This document shows, piece after piece, positions 10,722 to 40,391 of a stretch of 59,773 nt of DNA (position 1 is its first letter; each line of letters opens with the position of its first letter). The position numbers were made by a program, and so were the translations under genes. The stretch is from Cyanobium sp. T1B-Tous. GTDB taxonomy: Bacteria > Cyanobacteriota > Cyanobacteriia > PCC-6307 > Cyanobiaceae. The notes under the pieces are model-generated. The model saw only the letters and a program-made list of their open reading frames with translations. It did not search any database and was not told the origin of the DNA. The stretch is from NCBI RefSeq assembly GCF_024345475.1, contig NZ_JAGQBE010000010.1:1-59773 (forward strand), given 5' to 3'.

Positions 10722-11423
10722 CTAGAACTCGATGCCCCGCTGGGCCTTCACGCCCTGTTCCCGGAAGGGGTGGCGCACCAGTTTCATTTCGGTCACCAGG
10801 TCGGCCCGCTCCACCAGGCCCGGCGGTGCGCCCCGACCGGTGAGGGCCACGTGGGTGAGCTCGGGCCGCAGGGCCAGGCCCTCGAGCACCTGGTCCAGGG
10901 CGAGATAGCCGAGCTTGAGGGCCACGTTCACCTCGTCGAGCACCACCAGCTTGCGGCTGGCGTCCGCCAGATAGCTGCGGGATTGCTCCCAGGCGGCCTG
11001 GACCAAGGCCCGATCCCGCTCCCGGTCCTGGGTTTCCCAGGTGAAGCCTTCGCCGAGGGCGTGCCAGGCCAGGGCGTCGCCAAACAGCTCCAGGGCCTTG
11101 GCTTCGCCGGGCTGCCAGCCCCCCTTGATGAACTGCACCACCGCCACCGCATCGCCGTGGCCCAGGGTGCGCAGCACCAGCCCCAGGGCCGCGGTGGTCT
11201 TGCCCTTGCCGTCGCCGGTGAACACCAGCACCAGGCCCTTTTCCAGGTTGCGTTCGCCCACCCGCTGCTGCTGGACCTCCTTGCGGCGGGCCATGCGGCG
11301 GCGGTAGCCATCGGCATCCCCCTCCGGGGCCAGGTCACCACCGGGGCCGAGTTCGGCGGCCACCGCGTCCAGGCCAGTGGCGGCCGCTGGGGCTGGGGCG
11401 GGATCGGCGGGGGGCAGGCTCAC
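10722..11423 (-). CDS. cobO: Cob(I)yrinic acid a,c-diamide adenosyltransferase
   Basis: This enzyme adds the adenosyl group to the cobalt of corrinoids during cobalamin synthesis. A P-loop GDGKGKTTAALG lies at about residue 75, followed by VVQFIKGGW, VLDEVNVAL and TGRGAPPGL, all matching CobO/BtuR. The protein has about 233 residues from a GTG at 11423. That GTG overlaps the stop of the upstream integrase gene (GTGA), which fixes the start and implies a two-gene operon. The frame extends far upstream but that part overlaps the integrase and is not coding. Confidence 0.92.
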   Translation of the reverse strand: MSLPPADPAPAPAAATGLDAVAAELGPGGDLAPEGDADGYRRRMARRKEVQQQRVGERNLEKGLVLVFTGDGKGKTTAALGLVLRTLGHGDAVAVVQFIKGGWQPGEAKALELFGDALAWHALGEGFTWETQDRERDRALVQAAWEQSRSYLADASRKLVVLDEVNVALKLGYLALDQVLEGLALRPELTHVALTGRGAPPGLVERADLVTEMKLVRHPFREQGVKAQRGIEF

Positions 11424-12676
11424 GGAACGGCTAGGGCAGGGTCTCCACTCTGGCGGCGGCGGGAGAGGGCCGCATCCACGGCCTGTTGCTGATCCCGGCG
11501 GGTGATCCAGTGGTGGTAGGTGCGGGTGTGAATCGCCACCGAGTGGCCCATCATCCGCGCCGCCACCGTGTCGGGCAGCCCGATGTGAATGGTGCGCACG
11601 GCCCAGGCATGGCGCAGGTCGTAGGGCGTGATCGGCAGCGCGTAGCGACGGAACTGCTCGGCCACCCGCCGGCCCACCTGCTGCAGGGTGGTGCGGCGCA
11701 GGTCGGTGGTCACCGGCGGCAGGGGGGGCTGGAGGGCACCCAGCTGCTCGAGGCCAAAGTGCTCCACCCATTCCGGTTGGAAGGGCCACACCTGGTGTTC
11801 GCCCGTCTTGCTGGTGGGCAGCACCCGGATCACCCGGTCGCCCCCGGGGGCCAGGGCGGAGAGGTCGCAGAAAAACACCTCGTGGTTGCGCAGGCCGTAG
11901 GTGGCCATCAGGCCGTAGGCCAGCCGCCAGGCCGGGTTGGGGATCTGCTCCACCAGGGCGAGGATCTGGGGATCGCCGGGCAGCCGCCGGAATTGGGCGG
12001 CGTGCAGGCCATAGCCCGCGGCCCGGACGCTCCAGTCGTCGGGCAGGGGTTCCCCCAGGTGGCGGGCCAGGGCGGCCAGGGCGATGCCGCACTGCTGGCG
12101 CCCGCGGCTGGTGGGGGGGTAGCTCTCCAGCACCGCTTCCAGCAGGGGCAGTCCCATTGGTTGCCCGCGGCCCTCCGCCATCGCAGCCAGCCGCCGCAGG
12201 TAGGGGCGGTAGGCGCCGGTCCAGGTGGTGCGGCAGCCGGCCGGGTTGCGGCGGCGACGCGGATCGGCGAAGAAGGCGGTCTGGAAGCTCTCCAACCCCA
12301 GGGGATCCGTGGAGGGGGTGGCAACCCGCCGGGGGACGGTCGGGTTGCTGCGGCCCCACTCCGACCAGTCGAAGCGCCCCTGCTGCAACTGGCGTACCAC
12401 CTCCTTGAGCCGCTCCCTGGCCCGGTCCAGCCCCGCCCCGTCGGCGTTCAGCCCCAGGCTGATGCGTTGGACGGGATGGCCGCCGGATCCCCGCCGGCAG
12501 GGCAGGGGGCCGCGCAGCCCCAGCCGCTGGCCGCGCAGCTCCAGCCGCAGCGAAACCCCCGCCGCCGCCAGTTGGCTGTTCTCCTGGGCCAGGCGGGCCT
12601 GGATGGCCAGAGTGCTGGCCGGGCTGATCGGCTCCGCCGTTCCCTCCAGATCGGGCTCCCCAGCTCCGCTTGCCAT
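11420..12676 (-). CDS. Tyrosine recombinase/phage-type integrase
   Basis: This protein has 418 residues. The C-terminal catalytic domain shows the first arginine in GLRNHEVFF, box II as YDLRHAW (tyrosine replaces the usual first histidine of HxxR), then MGHS and the nucleophile region TRTYHHW. The N-terminal part (about 1-180) has the helical features of a core-binding domain. No other phage genes, att repeats or islands are visible beside it, and it is translationally coupled to cobO. It may be a resident recombinase or the relic of an old element; its target is unknown. Confidence 0.8.
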   Translation of the reverse strand: MASGAGEPDLEGTAEPISPASTLAIQARLAQENSQLAAAGVSLRLELRGQRLGLRGPLPCRRGSGGHPVQRISLGLNADGAGLDRARERLKEVVRQLQQGRFDWSEWGRSNPTVPRRVATPSTDPLGLESFQTAFFADPRRRRNPAGCRTTWTGAYRPYLRRLAAMAEGRGQPMGLPLLEAVLESYPPTSRGRQQCGIALAALARHLGEPLPDDWSVRAAGYGLHAAQFRRLPGDPQILALVEQIPNPAWRLAYGLMATYGLRNHEVFFCDLSALAPGGDRVIRVLPTSKTGEHQVWPFQPEWVEHFGLEQLGALQPPLPPVTTDLRRTTLQQVGRRVAEQFRRYALPITPYDLRHAWAVRTIHIGLPDTVAARMMGHSVAIHTRTYHHWITRRDQQQAVDAALSRRRQSGDPALAVP

Positions 12677-12780: not shown

Positions 12781-13956
12781 ATGGCCAAGGTTGGCGTGCT
12801 GTTGCTGAACCTCGGGGGCCCCGAGCGGATCCAGGACGTCGGTCCGTTCCTTTACAACCTGTTTTCCGATCCGGAGATCATCCGGCTGCCCAATCCCGCC
12901 CTGCAGAAGCCCCTGGCCTGGCTGATCAGCAGCCTGCGGGCGGGAAAATCCCAGGAGGCCTACCGCTCGATCGGCGGCGGCTCGCCGCTGCGCCGGATCA
13001 CCGAGCAGCAGGCCCGTGAACTGCAGAGCGAACTGCGGTCCCGGGGCATCGAGGCCACCAGCTATGTGGCCATGCGCTACTGGCATCCGTTCACCGAATC
13101 GGCCGTGGCCGACATCAAGGCCGACGGGGTGGATGAGGTGGTGGTGCTGCCCCTCTACCCGCACTTCTCGATCAGCACCAGCGGTTCGAGCTTCCGCGAG
13201 CTGCAGCGTCTGCGCCAGGCCGACACCGGCTTCTCCCGCCTGCCGATCCGCTGCATCCGCAGTTACTACGACGACCCCGGCTACATCGGCGCCATGGCCG
13301 GCCTGATTGCCAAGGAGATCCAGGCCTGCCCCGAACCGGCCACGGCCCATGTGTTCTTCAGCGCCCATGGCGTGCCCAAGAGCTATGTGGAGGAGGCTGG
13401 CGACCCCTACCAGCAGGAGATCGAAGCCTGCGCTCGCCTGATCATGGAGCGCCTCGAGCGCGATCTTGGCCACCCCAACCCCTTCACCCTGGCCTACCAG
13501 AGTCGGGTGGGCCCCGTGGAGTGGCTCAAGCCCTACACCGACGACGCCCTGCAGGAGCTGGGCGAGGCCGGCGTGAACGATCTGGTGGTGGTGCCGATCA
13601 GTTTCGTCAGCGAGCACATCGAAACGCTCGAAGAAATTGATATCGAATACCGGGAAATTGCCACCGAAGCGGGCATCATCAATTTCCGCCGGGTTCCGGC
13701 TCTGGACACCACACCCGCCTTCATCCATGGCCTGGCCGACCTCGTGCAACACGCCCTGGAGGGCCCGGAGGTCAACCTGGATCAGGCGGCCGAGTTGCCC
13801 ACCAAGGTGAAGCTCTATCCCCAGGACAAGTGGGCCTGGGGCTGGAACAACAGCTCCGAGGTCTGGAACGGTCGCTTGGCGATGGTGGGTTTTTCCGCTT
13901 TCCTGCTGGAGCTGATCAGCGGACGGGGACCGCTTCATGCGCTCGGCCTGCTTTGA
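12781..13956 (+). CDS. hemH: Ferrochelatase with C-terminal chlorophyll-binding-like segment
   Basis: This enzyme inserts ferrous iron into protoporphyrin IX to make haem, the precursor of biliverdin. The N-terminus [11 protein letters not shown], the catalytic-site [13 protein letters not shown] and the late [18 protein letters not shown] are diagnostic. The last 40 residues ([18 protein letters not shown]) form a single helix with the ExxxxR/NGRxAM pattern of Hlip/CAB proteins, which is usual in cyanobacteria and anchors the enzyme to thylakoids. Its position beside the bilin-reductase genes makes biochemical sense, since haem feeds phycoerythrobilin synthesis. Confidence 0.97.
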
Positions 13957-16361: not shown

Positions 16362-17281
<920 letters not shown>

Positions 17282-20422: not shown

Positions 20423-21727
20423 GTGAGCCGTTTCGACAACATCCATCTTGGCCTCACCCAGCAGGAGGCTCTGCGGATTTTAGAACAGCCTCTTGAAGCA
20501 CTTGAATCGGCCAGCGATTACTACATGGCGGCCTCCCACCTGATTAATTTTCCTGGAGACTCCACCGAGAAAGCCCTCCTGCAACTCCTTGCCGTTGATT
20601 CCGAAGAGCAGCCCATCCGTTTAGCCCAGCGTAAGGCGGTGGAGGTGCTTGGTCGTCTGAATGCACAACAAGCAATATCGGCCATCGGTTGTTGCCTCAA
20701 GAGTGAAGATCCCTACCTCGTTGAAAATAGTGCCTGGGCTCTTGAGCAATTGGGTTGTATGGATTCAATGTTGCATCAGGTGATGATCGATTGCCTGGCT
20801 GATCCTGCCCAGAATCGTCGGGTTTTGATCCAGAGCCTTGCTGGATTGAAGGTTCGCTCTGCCTTGGCAGCAATTGAAAGCCTCCAGAACGATTCCAATC
20901 CTGGTGTGCGCGGGGCAGCTCTGTGTGCCATTGCCCAGCTATCAGGTCAGCGTGATCAGCTACTGGCCCTTGAAGACCATCTCACTCTGCCAAATCAGAT
21001 GGATCGCCAGTCTGCTATCCAGGATGTGATCAATGCTGGTGCCATTAATCTTCTCCAGAGTGTCCTCCAGGCACCGGTTTCCCCCGTATTTCGGATGCGT
21101 GCTCTTAAGGCTCTCTGGCCGGAGAGTGCCACGTCCTGTGAGGGCATGGTATTGACAGATGCGCTTGATGCCTTGGTGCGTGATGATCCAAGTACTTTGG
21201 TGTTGGTACATCGCTATGACGATGAGCCTGACAATGCATTCCTGATCCAGGAGTTTTTTGGAACTGACTTCAGCCGTTGCTATCTGGCACTTCAGACACT
21301 GCGTCAACGGCCAGCTGAGGCTCTCTGGCCGCTGTTGCGGCGGGGCTGGCTCGAGGATGCGCATAACGATTATGGTGCGCATTACTTTTTTATTCGACTT
21401 TTTGGTTCCCATAAAGGATGGCCGGTGGAAGCTATGGCGATGATTACAGAGTGGCTCGTCGAGGCGGTTGATAACCAAAGGCCGCAATTCGTCAAATCAA
21501 AAGCTGCAGCACTATTGGCTCTGGCCTCATTAGATCCCCTGCTGTGTAAGCGGCATCTCAGCCGATGGGAAGATGTCGATCGCACGCCCTGGTGGGAATG
21601 CCGCTACGCGGCAGCAATGGCTCAAGAATTGATCGATTCTGGCGAAGATAGTAAAGTATTCAATGGCAAAGAAGCCCATCCCTACGTGAAGGCTCGCCTT
21701 CAATTGTTGCGGGCCATCAGTGGTTGA
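20423..21727 (+). CDS. cpeY: HEAT-repeat phycoerythrin lyase CpeY
   Basis: This bilin lyase of about 434 residues is built from HEAT repeats. The start GTG at 20423 gives SRFDNIHLGLTQQEALRILEQPL; an upstream ATG at 20360 adds a low-quality segment. Repeats such as LAQRKAVEVLGRLNAQQAI and VRGAALCAIAQLSGQ are clear, and the long C-terminal half with FIRLFGSHKGWP fits CpeY rather than CpeZ. CpeY with CpeZ adds phycoerythrobilin to Cys82 of CpeA in studied strains. It converges with cpeR, overlapping by 11 bases. Confidence 0.85.
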   Translation: MSRFDNIHLGLTQQEALRILEQPLEALESASDYYMAASHLINFPGDSTEKALLQLLAVDSEEQPIRLAQRKAVEVLGRLNAQQAISAIGCCLKSEDPYLVENSAWALEQLGCMDSMLHQVMIDCLADPAQNRRVLIQSLAGLKVRSALAAIESLQNDSNPGVRGAALCAIAQLSGQRDQLLALEDHLTLPNQMDRQSAIQDVINAGAINLLQSVLQAPVSPVFRMRALKALWPESATSCEGMVLTDALDALVRDDPSTLVLVHRYDDEPDNAFLIQEFFGTDFSRCYLALQTLRQRPAEALWPLLRRGWLEDAHNDYGAHYFFIRLFGSHKGWPVEAMAMITEWLVEAVDNQRPQFVKSKAAALLALASLDPLLCKRHLSRWEDVDRTPWWECRYAAAMAQELIDSGEDSKVFNGKEAHPYVKARLQLLRAISG

Positions 21728-22028
21728 TTTCCGAGAAACGGGTGCTCCTGCCTCCACGGCTGGCCCAGTACTGGACAAGTTCTTCTCCGCCAGGCCTTGG
21801 TATAGATGCCACAGCTCTCAACACTTTGAATGATCGGTTCGGTCCCATTGGCCAATTTCCCACGGCGCGCACTTCCCTCACATGTCCACCACAATCCAGC
21901 ATGCACTGCTCGAATCGTTCCACGTGTGATTGATCAACGGTTTCAAAGATGAAGTCTGTGCCTAGGCAGATCAGATGCTGAGATCGGATCCACGCTTTGA
22001 GCAACTTATGTGCATCATTTGCGTGCAT
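21717..22028 (-). CDS. cpeR: Phycoerythrin operon activator CpeR
   Basis: This protein of 103 residues has the segment KAWIRSQHLICLGTDFIFET and a later ERFEQCMLDCGGHV, which resemble CpeR. CpeR activates cpe genes in Fremyella diplosiphon, where it is encoded at the end of the cpeCDESTR operon. Here it follows linkers, cpeS and cpeT in the same order, which is the strongest support. Gap to cpeT is 27 bases. No DNA-binding motif is obvious, as is true of the family. Confidence 0.75.
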   Translation of the reverse strand: MHANDAHKLLKAWIRSQHLICLGTDFIFETVDQSHVERFEQCMLDCGGHVREVRAVGNWPMGPNRSFKVLRAVASIPRPGGEELVQYWASRGGRSTRFSEINH

Positions 22029-27144: not shown

Positions 27145-27840
27145 TCAGCACCGAAGCGACTCCAGAGAGTCCCGAGTTGTCGTACGAGTGAATGGGTTCC
27201 AGCAATCAAGTTCCGTGTGTGGCCGTGATAAAAGGTTTATAAGCTGCTCAGAACTGATCCCTGAGGCACAACTAAAATCGGCTCCCTGAATGCTATCTGC
27301 AGTATCGATGGATGTGTTAATGAAGTTAGCTGTGCGCAAATCTGCTTGATTCAATTGGCTACCCGTAAAGCGCGCTCCTTTGCAGCTGCACCCCTGTAGT
27401 CTGGCAAAGCGAAGATCGGCCCCCACAAAGTTTGCACCATCAAGCACAGAGCCGCTAAGGTCGCAACCACTGAGATAGGCCCCCATGAAACTACTTCCAC
27501 TCAGGTCCATCCCCCTTAAGTCGGCACCATTAAAAAATGCCCCATTCAGATAAGCCTTTGGTCCGACTGCTCCTGATTTGAAATGATTGAATCCCTCGGG
27601 AAACTTGCTGTCCATATCATAACGCGCTAACTTGAGATCACAGCCATCAAGCCGGCAGCCAGAGAGATCAGCACCTCTTAGATCTGCTCGGCACAGTTTA
27701 GATTCTCTTAAATCTAGAGGGGGTAGAGCTCGATGTGACCAGCAGGCTCCGCGGGCATCAAGTGCCACCTGATTAATCATATCAGGTACGCATGTCTCCG
27801 GGGGATGCCACTGCTGTGGATTCTCTGGTAATAAATTCAT
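27145..27840 (-). CDS. Pentapeptide-repeat protein of the pigment cluster
   Basis: This protein of 231 residues has A(D/N)LxG-type pentapeptide repeats between about residues 45 and 190 (for example ADLRGADLSGCRLDGCDL and GAYLSGCDLSGSVLDGANFVGADL). They predict a right-handed beta-helix. Function is unknown. Such genes occur in phycobilisome regions of marine picocyanobacteria as I recall, so a role in assembly is possible. It sits 139 bases after the phycobiliprotein-like gene and 171 before cpeC, all on the minus strand. No signal peptide. Confidence 0.8.
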   Translation of the reverse strand: MNLLPENPQQWHPPETCVPDMINQVALDARGACWSHRALPPLDLRESKLCRADLRGADLSGCRLDGCDLKLARYDMDSKFPEGFNHFKSGAVGPKAYLNGAFFNGADLRGMDLSGSSFMGAYLSGCDLSGSVLDGANFVGADLRFARLQGCSCKGARFTGSQLNQADLRTANFINTSIDTADSIQGADFSCASGISSEQLINLLSRPHTELDCWNPFTRTTTRDSLESLRC

Positions 27841-27979: not shown

Positions 27980-28567
27980 TCATTCGCTTTTTGGGTTTAG
28001 CGCAAAGATCAAGTCGTTAAATGCATTTTCAGCGCTAAAGCTTTCACTCTCATAGCCTGATCTTCGAAGACTATTGACCGAGAGAACCTTTAATTCTGAT
28101 ATGACGTACAAGAGTGCTTTTACGGGTACTCTCAAAAACGTATAGAGTTCCAATAATGCCTTCATGCCTTCTTTGTCGGTGATTTCTGTGCAATTACATG
28201 CTACCCCGTAAGTCACTACCCTCATAAACTGCTCGCAGTCTCTCCAGCACGCCATGGCTCTATGCTCAGGGAAAAGCTCTCCTCCTTGCATTATCAACCC
28301 TGGTTGTTTATATAGTAATGACGCTCTCGCTCTGGCGATCATCTTTGGTGACTGCTCGATTAGTTCGGCAACAGCTCTTTCTGAGACTTCGCAAATAGTG
28401 CAGATATGCTCTATTTCATTTTGACTCAGTGCGCATCGCGCTCCATCTGCAATCACGATAATCTTTCTAACTTCTATAGGTATAGTTTCTCTAGCGCCAA
28501 GCCCACATACGTTGGCTTGCGCGATAAGACGGCTAATCTCGGCTTTGTATTCCGTTCCTGTTGTCAT
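27980..28567 (-). CDS. Divergent phycobiliprotein-like protein
   Basis: This protein has about 195 residues. Its C-terminal two thirds match the phycobiliprotein globin fold by pattern: IMQGGELFPEHRAMACWRDCE parallels the CpeB/CpcB segment around [11 protein letters not shown], and LLELYTFLRVP parallels [14 protein letters not shown]. The chromophore-type cysteine of the CWRD motif is kept. The first 60 residues fit neither alpha nor beta subunits well. The ATG at 28567 overlaps the stop of the upstream gene (ATGA), fixing the start and implying coupled translation. The segment is visibly more AT-rich than cpc genes beside it. It could be a phycobilisome accessory, a sensor or a bilin carrier; this is unresolved. 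Confidence 0.7.
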   Translation of the reverse strand: MTTGTEYKAEISRLIAQANVCGLGARETIPIEVRKIIVIADGARCALSQNEIEHICTICEVSERAVAELIEQSPKMIARARASLLYKQPGLIMQGGELFPEHRAMACWRDCEQFMRVVTYGVACNCTEITDKEGMKALLELYTFLRVPVKALLYVISELKVLSVNSLRRSGYESESFSAENAFNDLIFALNPKSE

Positions 28568-28986
28568 AAAATAGAGCCAAGTGGAGTTGCGGACAATGTA
28601 TTTTTTCGGTCCAAGTAGAATGCCCATATAGTCGACTCGCCTAATCCATAGCAGCGATCGCATGCAAGACTGGCTAGCTCGGCCACTATACCGATTGATT
28701 CCAAGAGCGCTTGAGCTTCTTTTTTACCAGATACGAGAGTGGTCCGAATCGAAGAGCCTACGACCCATGTGAGTTGTGTCTGCATTAGATCGCCATCACT
28801 ATCTTGGCATGCAACGAGGAGATTCGCATTATTATAATGAGCCATAAAATGCGATCTCCAAAGGGATATGTCGTCACTCCTAAGGTCAATGCGAAGATGC
28901 ATATCTCCCGACTTGTATACGATTTCCTCGCTTTCTCCTGCTTGTCTTATCAAGTTTATGATCTGCTCGGGCTGCTGGAACGTCAT
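28564..28986 (-). CDS. Unknown protein coupled to the phycobiliprotein-like gene
   Basis: This protein of 140 residues has no recognised domain, signal peptide or membrane segment. Visible features are charged and polar N-terminal half (EEIVYKSGDMHLRIDLRSDDI), a hydrophobic-to-aromatic centre (LWRSHFMAHYNNANLLVAC), and the cysteines in LACDRCYGLG. Its TGA overlaps the ATG of the phycobiliprotein-like gene, so the two form a coupled pair. AT-rich composition suggests both came in together. Function unknown; partner of the phycobiliprotein-like protein is the simplest inference. Confidence 0.6.
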   Translation of the reverse strand: MTFQQPEQIINLIRQAGESEEIVYKSGDMHLRIDLRSDDISLWRSHFMAHYNNANLLVACQDSDGDLMQTQLTWVVGSSIRTTLVSGKKEAQALLESIGIVAELASLACDRCYGLGESTIWAFYLDRKNTLSATPLGSIL

Positions 28987-29240: not shown

Positions 29241-29729
29241 TCAAACTAGGGCGTTGATTGCATAGTCTAGATAGTTATTTGCTTCGGTGGCTGGCTCGCC
29301 AGTGAGACCATGATTGGCTTTGATGTAATTGAGAGCTTCAACGTACCACGACGGAGACAGCTCAAAGGCACGGTTGATTTCATCGATGCCAGCAATCAGA
29401 TACTCATCCATCGGCCCAGTGCCACCGGCCACGAGGCAATATGTAACCATTCTCAGGTAGTAGCCGATATCACGGCTGCATTTTGCTTTGCCACGCGCAT
29501 CAGCAGCGTAGTTGGCACCCTGCATCTGGGTGGTGTAGGGGAACTTGCTGTAAACGGCTTGTGCAGCACCATTGACAAGACTATCTGCATTCGCGGTTAA
29601 TCCCTTTGCTGCTGCAAGGGCGCTCTTGGCACGGTTGTATCGACCGAATGCCGAGTTGATCTCCGTGTTGCTCAGAAAGCGGCCTTGGGAATCAGCTGCT
29701 GAAACAGCTTCGGTGAGAGGGGTCTTCAT
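29241..29729 (-). CDS. cpcA: Phycocyanin alpha subunit
   Basis: This protein of 162 residues begins [18 protein letters not shown]. It carries one chromophore cysteine, in [14 protein letters not shown] (Cys84 type), and the conserved [19 protein letters not shown]. Bilin identity (phycocyanobilin or another) depends on the lyase, which is not in the window, so R-phycocyanin (rpcA) is an alternative name. It follows cpcB by 38 bases and ends with a terminator. The operon sits between the decayed linker/IS element and the phycobiliprotein-like pair. Confidence 0.95.
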
Positions 29730-29767
29730 GGGAGTACCTGGCTAAAGAATTAGTTTTTGCTTAAAAT

Positions 29768-30286
29768 TTAGGCTACTGCCGCAGCGGCACGATCGAAGTA
29801 GGTGCCGATCTCGCTCATCAGTGCAGAGCAGTCGCCGGCGGTGATGCCATTGCGATCGTTGGCGATGGCGATGGCGGCTTCTTTCATCTTGCGTACGCCT
29901 TCGGCTACGGAAGCACCGGGAACGCCGAGGGCCAGGTAGGTCTCACGCAGGCCGTTCAGGCAGCGGTCTTCCAGCACGGAGGCGTCGCCGTTGAACACGG
30001 AGTAGGTGATGTAGCGGAGGATGATCTCCATGTCGCGCAGGCAGGCAGCCATGCGGCGACTGGTGTAAGCGTTGCCGCCTGGGGCTGTCAGGGCAGGTTG
30101 TGCCTCAAACAGGTCGCGGGCCGCGTTGGTGACGATCTTGGACGCGTTGGAGGTGATGCGGTTGACAGCATCCATCCGCTTGTTGCTTTCGGCGACCATT
30201 GCCGCGAGGGCGTCGATCTGGCCAGCGTTGATGAATTCGCCACGGGCATCAGCCTGGGCAACCACCTTGGTGAAGGCGTCAAACAT
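29768..30286 (-). CDS. cpcB: Phycocyanin beta subunit
   Basis: This protein of 172 residues begins [16 protein letters not shown]. Two attachment cysteines are visible: [11 protein letters not shown] (Cys82 type) and [13 protein letters not shown] (Cys153 type). CpcT encoded nearby is the expected lyase for the second. Absence of the Cys50/61 pair separates it from CpeB. The ATG at 30286 fits the family; the frame upstream is leader. It is first in cpcBA. The 300-base upstream stretch has been shortened from its old neighbours by an IS3 insertion. Confidence 0.96.
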
Positions 30287-30636: not shown

Positions 30637-31398
30637 TCATGCGGCAACTCCCTGTTGAGCTGCCTCCAGGGGCGTACGCCCCTGGAGGGCCGAGTGCGGC
30701 CTGAGAGAGTTGTACTCCCAGCGCCAACGATCGGCCAGGATTTGCGCCTCCGGAGCTGTGGTGAACAGCTCGGTGTTGAGGAACTCATCCCGGAACCGGC
30801 CATTGAACGATTCCGCGAATCCGTTCTCCCAGGGGGATCCCGGCGCGATGTACGCCGTGCTGGTGGTGGTGCTGGCCTCACACCAGTCCCGTAGGGCCTG
30901 GGCGATGAATTCCGGACCGTTGTCGCTACGGATGAACGCCGGGGCCGGGTAAAAGCTGGTGAGCTCCTCCAGCACCGCCACCACGTCCTTGGCCTTGCAG
31001 CGTCTGCCCACCCGGATGGCCAGGCAGAGGCGGCTGTGCTCGTCGATCACGTTCAAGAACTTCAGTCTGCGGCCGTCGGCGGTGGCGTCGAACTGGAAAT
31101 CCATGGCCCACGCCTGGTGGGGATGCTCGGCCCGGTGACGCCGCACCGAACCATCTGCGGGCCGTGCCCGCTTTCGCTTCCGGGGAGTGGGCCGCTGCAG
31201 GCCTTCCTCCCGCCAGAGCCGTTGCACCCGCTTGTGATTGACGGTCCAGCCCTCCCTCCGCAGCAGGCGGTAGGCCATCCGCCGGCCCCAGCGGATGTGC
31301 TCAGCGGCAATATCCCGGAGGCGTTGGCGCAGCTTGGCCTCCTCGATATCGACAACCTTGCCCCCATGGCGCTGGGTGCTGCGGTGCTGCCCCGCCAC
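30637..31398 (-). CDS. IS3-family transposase OrfB
   Basis: This is the catalytic part of the transposase, with at least 253 residues. The integrase-core DDE residues are visible: [13 protein letters not shown] (first Asp), [10 protein letters not shown] (second Asp) and [15 protein letters not shown] (Glu). An N-terminal helix-turn-helix-like [15 protein letters not shown] precedes the core. The listed GTG start is a minimum; the same frame is open back to about 31,560 (including GKLLSPERR), overlapping the end of orfA in another frame. A fusion OrfAB by ribosomal frameshifting is usual in the family. Confidence 0.88.
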
Positions 31399-31546
31399 CC
31401 GGCAGACAAAGCGTTCAGAAGCCCGGTAACGATCCTGCAGAACCTTGACGGCTCTGTCGCACCGCGAGGTGCGCTTTGCAGCGCAACGGCGTTCCGGGCT
31501 CAGAAGTTTCCCTCGGCAAGGTCCTACGGCTTCGCCGGGCCTGCGG

Positions 31547-31801
31547 CTAGAGCATCGCCTTCTCCAGCTCCGCCTCCGCCAGAAGCTTCTTGAGCCGGGC
31601 GTTCTCCTTCTCCAGCTGAGTCAGCCGCCTGGCTTCCTCGGCCTGCATTCCGCCGTACTGCTGCCGCCAGCGGTGGTAGGTCGGCTGCGTCACCTCGATG
31701 ACGCGGCAGACCTCGACGACGGTCTTGCCTTGGGCGATCAGCTGCTCGGCGGTCTTGAGCTTGCGGATGATCTGCTCCGCCGTGTGCCTGGTGCGTTTCA
31801 T
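31547..31801 (-). CDS. IS3-family transposase OrfA
   Basis: This DNA-binding subunit of about 84 residues starts at [12 protein letters not shown]. It has a helix-turn-helix ([20 protein letters not shown]) and a leucine-zipper-like C-terminus ([17 protein letters not shown]) that mediates OrfA/OrfAB multimerisation. The frame ends LEKAML then TAG; orfB continues in a different frame, so fused transposase requires frameshifting. An in-frame ATG at 31843 gives 14 more residues that are not family-like. Confidence 0.85.
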
Positions 31802-31875
31802 GGTGAAGTCCCCGGCCCAGTCTGGCCGGATGAGGACTCTCATTCACCCTGGACCGACTTCCGGGGTCCACGTCA

Positions 31876-31879: not shown

Positions 31880-31971
31880 TGAATGTCACCTGATGGCCGC
31901 TGCTGAACCTGGTGCCGCGAGTGCCTGCAGAAACCTTCGTCGTGTGATGGGCATAAGGGTTGGATGGGAGC

Positions 31972-32340
31972 TCAGTTCACAGGGGTAATGCTGGCGATGC
32001 GCCCCCCTCCCGCTGAATTTGCTGCTGGTACTGCAGCGGTTTGTTGAAGGGGATGAAGCGCACTCCCTTGCTGCTCTCTGGGGTGCGCGACCCAGCAGAT
32101 GCTTGAAATTGAGCTCGATCAACTGGTAGGGATTGCAGTGTTCGAAGGATTTCTGCTTGTAGAGGCCGCTCTTGGCCGCCTGGCGCACAAACTTACCCAC
32201 GCTCAGGTGGCCACGATTGAACAGGGACTCTTGCCCTTTCAGCCGCTCGCTGGCCCTAACGAACTGGTGACCCAGCACATGCTTGTAGACCGCGCGGATC
32301 AGGACAGCTTTGTCATTTTCAGTGGGACAGCTGCAAGCGG
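31972..32340 (-). pseudogene. Decayed phycobilisome rod-linker gene
   Basis: The N-terminal half of a linker domain is readable: AVLIRAVYKHVLGHQFV, SVGKFVRQAAKSGLYKQKSF and LIELNFKHLLGRAPQ. Straight after that, the middle of the protein is missing, and a CpcD-like end follows in another frame (GVRFIPFNKPLQYQQQIQREGG). One more frameshift in a G-run then gives RIASITPVN and a stop. Upstream of the linker domain the frame is closed by a TAG, so no good start remains. A normal CpcC/CpeC-type linker has about 290 residues. It was probably a phycocyanin rod linker upstream of cpcBA. Confidence 0.8.
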
Positions 32341-34568: not shown

Positions 34569-34641
34569 TGCCAGGACCCAGATTTGAACTGGGGACACGG
34601 CGATTTTCAATCGCCTGCTCTACCAACTGAGCTATCCCGGC
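34569..34641 (-). tRNA. tRNA-Phe (anticodon GAA)
   Basis: The minus strand folds to a full cloverleaf of 73 bases without encoded CCA. The acceptor GCCGGGA pairs with TCCTGGC (one G-T pair), the D arm is GCTC/GAGC, the anticodon loop is TTGAAAA and the T arm contains GTTCAAATC. Its 5' end overlaps the stop codon of the comF-like gene. Its 3' end faces the pigment gene cluster, the orientation expected if islands integrated here. Confidence 0.95.
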
Positions 34642-40267: not shown

Positions 40268-40391
40268 GGAGAGATGGCGGCCTGCCGGTTGGCAGTGCGA
40301 AGGAAGGAACGACCTGCCCGCCAGCAGATCGAGCGCAGTCGATCACTGTACCAACGGGACAGCCCCAGAATCCTCAGCGCCTCTGGTGCCT

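Follow-up and report, generated by a model that had tools for sequence, protein, structure and literature searches.

The unk4-aplA gene pair of a picocyanobacterial phycobilisome cluster and the association of AplA with phycoerythrin

The stretch of DNA that we analyzed (59,773 nucleotides from Cyanobium sp. T1B-Tous; the window) contains an island of pigment genes, and inside it lie two genes that do not look like ordinary antenna genes. What are they, and what might they do? A sequence-only reading had proposed that a divergent phycobiliprotein and an unrecognized protein act together, as a bilin-binding accessory protein, sensor, or assembly factor with a dedicated partner, and that this would be new. 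Those roles are live hypotheses, but the family is not new: the two genes almost certainly correspond to unk4-aplA as it occurs in phycobilisome clusters of type IIB, and their host is a picocyanobacterium near Vulcanococcus limneticus. AplA with unk4-aplA is described in PMC2246261, cpcA-unk4 in PMC4139726, and aplA of type IIB in PMC6363710.

Both open reading frames are real, with products of 195 and 140 amino acids, and the start codon of aplA overlaps the stop codon of unk4 (Table 1). The longest frame for aplA begins at 28663, encodes 227 amino acids, and reaches into unk4; we placed the start at 195 amino acids because homologues support it. The ATGA overlap suggests that the two genes are translationally coupled. 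We compared 19 of the 33 genomes that have both genes: with start codons that we chose ourselves, the genes overlap in 15 of them, and the remaining 4 have a gap of 3-9 nt. As had been noticed, the pair lies inside the pigment island; it stands behind cpcBA and in the same cluster as cpeB. The gene after aplA encodes a pentapeptide-repeat protein and is followed by a linker with a CpcD domain; cpcGII does not come next.

Table 1. Features of the pigment island in the window
Feature	Coordinates	Strand	Remarks
aplA	27980..28567	-	195-aa allophycocyanin-like protein; PF00502, E 9.7e-23
unk4	28564..28986	-	140-aa picocyanobacterial protein, no domain match; phycoerythrin/rod cluster
ATGA stop/start overlap of unk4 and aplA	28564..28567	-	4 nt, read from the sequence
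cpcB-cpcA (phycocyanin)	29241..30286	-	Upstream of unk4-aplA, same strand
Pentapeptide-repeat gene (fits unk5)	27145..27840	-	Downstream of aplA; PF00805, E 1.1e-27
cpeB (phycoerythrin beta)	16721..17281	+	NF058508, 338.9 bits (cut-off 275); same cluster; co-occurrence marker
hemH	12781-13956		One end of the pigment island
tRNA-Phe	34569-34641		

The two genes are indeed AT-rich: their G+C content is 44.4% (aplA) and 45.9% (unk4), versus 52.1% for cpcA and 62.2% for cpcB in the window. In five other loci, from four relatives and V. limneticus LL, both genes are also below both cpc genes. Because the relatives share it, the low G+C content is not special to this stretch, and we did not adopt a recent gain of unk4 and aplA as its explanation. 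A search for similarity to phage DNA gave no match for the locus, and profiles of Unk4 and AplA found no relative in viral contigs.

We assigned the cluster to type IIB because of the cpcA-unk4 order and the presence of tRNA-Phe and hemH. In the available text of Larsson et al. 2014 (PMC4139726), type IIB clusters show the cpcA-unk4 order, hemH lies within type II and IIB clusters, and a repeated segment includes tRNA-Phe; for type IIB, Sanchez-Baracaldo et al. 2019 (PMC6363710) describe cpcBA as lying upstream of aplA. The nearest named genome that we found is V. limneticus LL, whose AplA and Unk4 are 93% and 94% identical to those in the window. PMC4139726 also reports transposases between unk5 and cpeC, whereas here a transposase pair (30637-31843 and 31886-32278; rve/HTH_21 and HTH_Tnp_1) sits upstream of cpcB instead, between it and a truncated linker gene. 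The match to this linker spans 68 of the 126 positions of PBS_linker_poly, and another locus (L169) likewise has two linker fragments ahead of cpcB. Elsewhere in the window, 11420-12676, beside hemH, weakly matches a phage integrase, with a score of 27.1 bits that lies at the cut-off, and a cyanobacterial ribosomal protein S1 leader RNA lies at 40274-40355 (RF03151, 42 bits).

In marine Synechococcus, according to the accessible part of Six et al. 2007 (PMC2246261), strains with PEII all have an aplA orthologue upstream of cpcGII, with unk4 upstream of aplA, and unk5 encodes a pentapeptide protein near cpcGII. Thus, Unk4 of the window and of marine Synechococcus, which we liken by position, both lie directly upstream of aplA in organisms with phycoerythrin, but here the pentapeptide gene and the CpcD-domain linker follow aplA instead of cpcGII.

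The phycobiliprotein similarity, which had been judged by eye, is clear. An HMM search, proposed by the sequence-only reading as a check, matched residues 36-170 of AplA to PF00502 with 81 bits (cut-off 22), and a search of the PDB returned allophycocyanin chains with E values down to 6.7e-14. The best matches in PDB and NCBIfam are ApcA or allophycocyanin alpha. AplA is nevertheless not an antenna subunit, of either the alpha or the beta type: in all six subunit models that it matched, it fell below the curated cut-off (at best 56.1 versus 270 bits, for ApcA), and against another allophycocyanin equivalog model it scored 51 bits versus a cut-off of 228. When we scanned its own genome, nine ordinary-looking subunits scored higher than AplA (81.7 bits), and two partial matches, which share one 1308-residue frame that we took to be ApcE, scored lower. 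The first 60 residues had been called unfamiliar. They consist of about 28-30 residues that extend the N terminus and, after these, a divergent start of the domain; residue 33 aligns to residue 4 of ApcA, and the Pfam alignment begins at 36.

AplA of Fremyella diplosiphon reportedly extends beyond allophycocyanin by about 28 residues at its N terminus. AplA is said to have been described by Montgomery et al. 2004, and reported there as not linked to phycobilisomes. We built a profile from 31 picocyanobacterial AplA sequences and applied it to 386 genomes from across the phylum. The scores fell into three classes: 235-267 bits for AplA of picocyanobacteria, 126-173 bits for AplA-type proteins from the remaining cyanobacteria, which include the N-terminal extension, and 103.5 bits or less for ordinary subunits. 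Full-length matches above 120 bits were counted as AplA.

A phylogeny of homologues, another check that had been suggested, set AplA apart. In a tree of 56 rows (trimmed by us, and with the named Fremyella AplA not among them), 39 AplA rows were split from 17 ordinary subunits by a branch with 100/100 support and did not group with any subunit clade. Picocyanobacterial and other AplA rows each lay on one side of a branch (96/88 and 95/94). The N-terminal extension is 23-39 residues in the 39 AplA rows, five of which were trimmed to 200 or 205 residues, versus 0-1 in 16 of the 17 ordinary subunits; the exception, cpeA of L148, has an over-long start.

The residues of the bilin site are also conserved. 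The equivalents of Cys84, Arg86, and Asp87 (C107, R109, and D110 here) are invariant in all 39 AplA rows, and position 85 (W108 here) is Trp in 39 of 39 AplA rows versus none of the 17 ordinary subunits. All four residues are invariant in the 31 rows of the picocyanobacterial profile alignment as well, and a Trp after the bilin Cys marks the AplA family. From these comparisons, AplA likely binds a bilin, and the protein in the window, which would carry a bilin too, fits the AplA class. The equivalents of Arg93 and Tyr97 are present in 39 of 39 AplA rows and that of Asp12 in 34 of 39. A Tyr or Phe at the Tyr17 position is missing from 20 of 21 picocyanobacterial rows, but all 18 of the other AplA rows have one, as do 14 of 17 ordinary subunits. 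We take these four positions to be alpha-beta contact residues, and altered contacts would be expected of AplA.

How does this protein compare with known ones? Like AplA of Fremyella diplosiphon and marine Synechococcus, it is allophycocyanin-like, keeps the bilin residues, and is encoded in the rod cluster behind unk4. As a difference, picocyanobacterial rows have mostly lost the aromatic residue at the Tyr17 position, and 16 of 21 have a second Cys at position 88. AplA shares its family and the bilin Cys-x-Arg-Asp with ApcA, ApcB, ApcD, and ApcF, but it has the extra N terminus, scores far below their cut-offs, and is separate in the tree. The bilin biosynthesis-associated globins (BBAG), to judge from the description in excerpts of PMC10151467, are likewise bilin-binding proteins outside the antenna that belong to the wider family, whereas the matches of AplA are to PF00502 and allophycocyanin chains.

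Which cyanobacteria keep AplA? CpeB (NF058508) was above cut-off in 61 of the 386 genomes. Both proteins were present in 48 genomes, AplA only in 5, CpeB only in 13, and neither in 320. For the 125 non-picocyanobacterial genomes that were listed, the corresponding counts were 28, 5, 2, and 90. Fisher values for these counts ignore phylogeny, and our control is the contrast within genera. Within the genomes listed in the AplA profile search, seven non-picocyanobacterial genera vary in CpeB, and in all seven, every genome with CpeB has AplA and every other genome lacks it. In genus g87, AplA varies without CpeB and is present in 4 of 7 members.

Because the phylum-wide scoring took the best 8 candidates (the searches for Unk4, AplA, and CpeB considered only the best 8-10 for most genomes), we rechecked absences with every candidate scored. 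None of 38 AplA-negative genomes gave an AplA match at E <= 1e-28, and none of 37 CpeB-negative genomes had CpeB above the cut-off. The rechecks cover every negative genome of the seven genera (nine in all), and the five AplA-only genomes as well as G241 and G422 are included where applicable; as a positive control, the same AplA profile matches in 53 genomes of the phylum sample.

The genomes with CpeB and no AplA are 10 Prochlorococcus-type genomes plus G081, G241, and G422. AplA occurs without CpeB in G186 and in the four g87 members G366, G368, G383, and G432. In these five, a bilin-reductase query scored 44-56 bits (the level of PcyA), whereas it reached 176 and 186 bits in two genomes of phycoerythrin makers. 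Therefore, AplA does not need phycoerythrobilin in those genomes, and we ruled out a strict need for it, as the five lack reductases at the level of PebA. We also considered a sample of 151 genomes from the window's own family, in which AplA was counted at E <= 5.1e-18, plus G084, which was confirmed by the profile; G150 (E 4.3e-16) was dropped when the profile showed it to be an ordinary ApcA. In this sample, 38 of the 40 genomes with AplA have CpeB, and 60 of the 98 with CpeB, many of them Prochlorococcus-type, do not have AplA. Thus, the link between AplA and phycoerythrin is strong in phycobilisome-bearing cells, but it amounts to a tendency, not a rule.

What is new here is that, across the phylum, it is mostly the phycoerythrin-making cyanobacteria that keep AplA. 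The portions available under open licence of PMC2246261, PMC6363710, PMC4139726, PMC5478717, PMC2327270, PMC10151467, PMC8622606, PMC6776005, and PMC4390838 do not state a phylum-wide link. It may be in print already, in Montgomery et al. 2004 or elsewhere.

Genes near aplA outside the picocyanobacteria point in the same direction. Of the 28 non-picocyanobacterial genomes that have both genes, 11 have cpeB at a distance of 1.8-11.4 kb from aplA; in 6, cpeB is on the same contig but at least 81 kb away, and in 11 it is on another contig. Of the 33 non-picocyanobacterial aplA loci, we read 20 neighborhoods, plus those of G366, G432, and G383. The 20 include a bilin reductase of the PebA/B type in 11 cases, a CpeS-type protein in 9, and a CpeT-type protein in 9. 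A 220-amino-acid HEAT-repeat protein (such as L131:6616-7278) is encoded within 1.2 kb of aplA in 18 of the 33 genomes, always on the opposite strand (18 of 18). We considered whether it might be a dedicated lyase for AplA and searched 63 genomes, namely all 33 with AplA and 30 without, for orthologues (170 bits or more). Of the 30 genomes with phycoerythrin, 27 have one, among them the 2 that lack AplA; of the 33 without phycoerythrin, 6 do. The HEAT protein's distribution tracks phycoerythrin rather than AplA, so we rejected this idea. A 103-amino-acid gene after cpeT in the window (21717-22028), with no match in Pfam or NCBIfam, has a homologue in 7 of the 20 neighborhoods and is another unexplained gene of the phycoerythrin cluster.

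Turning to Unk4, the sequence-only reading was right that the 140-residue protein has no recognized domain: searches of Pfam, NCBIfam, PHROGs, and PDB gave nothing significant for it, and neither did a search of PDB with its profile or of Pfam with 30 relatives. We considered whether it might be a relative of DUF2656 or CpeS, but rejected this since hhalign gave a probability of just 0.2% against the window's own proteins of these kinds. A structural model from 3 sequences (pLDDT 65.7, pTM 0.56) had no Foldseek match under E 0.05 (the best was 0.056), and the best match with VIA, to succinyl-CoA synthetase chains, had a Z score of 6.5, which is below the level that counts as telling for this tool; we claim no fold. 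Similarly, the prediction for AplA from 3 sequences had a pLDDT of 42, and neither model informs the mechanism. Relative to V. limneticus, dN/dS is 0.31 for aplA and 0.51 for unk4, compared to 0.02 for cpcA; constraint on the pair appears loose, judged on few differences.

Is Unk4 dedicated to AplA, as its lyase, inhibitor, or signal partner? The overlap or short gap (9 nt or less) in all 19 genomes compared, of the 33 with both, speaks for such a partnership, as does a correlation at position 88 of AplA. In picocyanobacteria, this position (C111 here) is Cys where unk4 abuts aplA, but it is Leu in the seven genomes that lack Unk4 (G049 and six of genus g9) and in G083 and G084, where unk4 is 6-8 kb off. 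C111 is one helical turn from C107, and a second bilin link through C111 would be possible. However, the correlation mostly reflects one clade. In the 18 rows from other cyanobacteria, position 88 is Phe in 16, Leu in one, and Cys in one, and that one (G186, locus L147) has the second Cys without Unk4. For both reasons, the idea that a second Cys marks Unk4 was kept only as a lead. In G083 and G084 (L152 and L153), aplA lies within a block of cpe lyase genes, between a HEAT gene and a DUF2656 gene, and unk4 adjoins bilin-reductase genes, which is an alternative arrangement.

The distribution of Unk4 speaks against a dedicated partnership. In the family sample, Unk4 is present in 52 genomes and AplA in 40; 33 have both, 19 have only Unk4, and 7 have only AplA. 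Strain WH7805 has unk4 without aplA, according to part of PMC2246261. The profile search found Unk4 in just 23 of the 386 phylum genomes, each of which belongs to the same family as the window and has CpeB, and none of the non-picocyanobacterial AplA genomes had a match. In the family sample, 50 of the 52 genomes with Unk4 have CpeB, and the other two are an assembly that is 85% complete and one that is 4% contaminated. Of the 19 genomes with Unk4 only, 16 have a single phycobiliprotein match and are presumably Prochlorococcus; G080, G081, and G105 have several. The order cpeY-cpeT-cpeS-linker-unk4 is present in 12 of the 13 Prochlorococcus-type loci that we read (in L171, the stretch from cpeS to unk4 showed no linker), and in the 12 such loci with cpeB on the same contig, Unk4 is about 5.5-6.6 kb from it. 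Some copies of Unk4 are damaged (split in G029, with 8 stops in G058, and with stops in G020, G055, and G073) and apparently decaying; these genomes have one phycobiliprotein match or CpeB only. Therefore, Unk4 belongs to the phycoerythrin cluster of picocyanobacteria, often in the operon of aplA, but does not need AplA. This comparison does not support the claim of a dedicated partner, and we consider such a role quite unlikely; any contact between AplA and Unk4 would be conjectural.

What, then, might AplA do? We propose that it is a protein of the phycobiliprotein fold that would hold a bilin on C107 with the help of R109 and D110, that it would not serve the antenna, and that it would report on or assist the production of phycoerythrin. 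Most likely it would be a bilin-loaded regulatory or sensor protein of phycoerythrin-making cells. Unk4 would be a separate factor of the picocyanobacterial phycoerythrin cluster, translated together with AplA in many genomes yet independent of it. As a whole, this account is probable, with appreciable room for doubt: the five genomes with only AplA, the 13 with only CpeB, the 60 CpeB genomes in the family without AplA, the loose constraint, and the low pLDDT of the AplA model all count against it. The specific role as a regulator or sensor tied to phycoerythrin is more tentative, at somewhat under an even chance.

The main rival is that AplA is an assembly or maturation factor for phycoerythrin, that is, an alpha- or beta-like chaperone that docks CpeA or CpeB or passes bilin along with lyases. 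AplA follows phycoerythrin within genera, its neighbors include bilin reductases and the lyase-like HEAT proteins, and it retains the Arg93, Tyr97, and (mostly) Asp12 equivalents, presumably contact residues. However, some genomes have AplA without phycoerythrin, G241, G422, and G081 have CpeB without AplA, and a pure chaperone would not need an invariant bilin Cys. We think this rival is on the unlikely side and favor a regulator over it, although these data cannot separate the two. A role within the phycobilisome, as a minor antenna subunit or a terminal emitter, is far less probable. AplA does belong to the phycobiliprotein family with an intact bilin site, and its gene lies inside a rod cluster, but the N-terminal extension, the loss in picocyanobacteria of the Tyr17-position aromatic (though other AplA proteins keep it), and the separation from every subunit clade all argue against antenna service. 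The available part of PMC2246261 also calls AplA a photosensor of unknown function (as of 2007) that is not linked to phycobilisomes. A bolder version of the regulator reading, which we regard as rather unlikely, is that AplA is a general companion of phycoerythrin in cyanobacteria with phycobilisomes, a bilin protein outside the antenna that would sense bilin or green light and so gate the synthesis or assembly of phycoerythrin, and that in most picocyanobacteria it became a two-Cys protein (C107 and C111) with a reversible second bilin link, Unk4 being recruited to its operon.

Overall, both genes are already known as kinds, and the phyletic pattern is our addition: it is a testable lead on the job of AplA. 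Unk4 adds another unexplained gene to the phycoerythrin pathway, and several Prochlorococcus-type genomes whose only phycobiliprotein match is CpeB keep it. If AplA follows phycoerythrin across the phylum, then its role should be sought in the synthesis, maturation, or light control of phycoerythrin, and knockouts would have a clear phenotype to look for.
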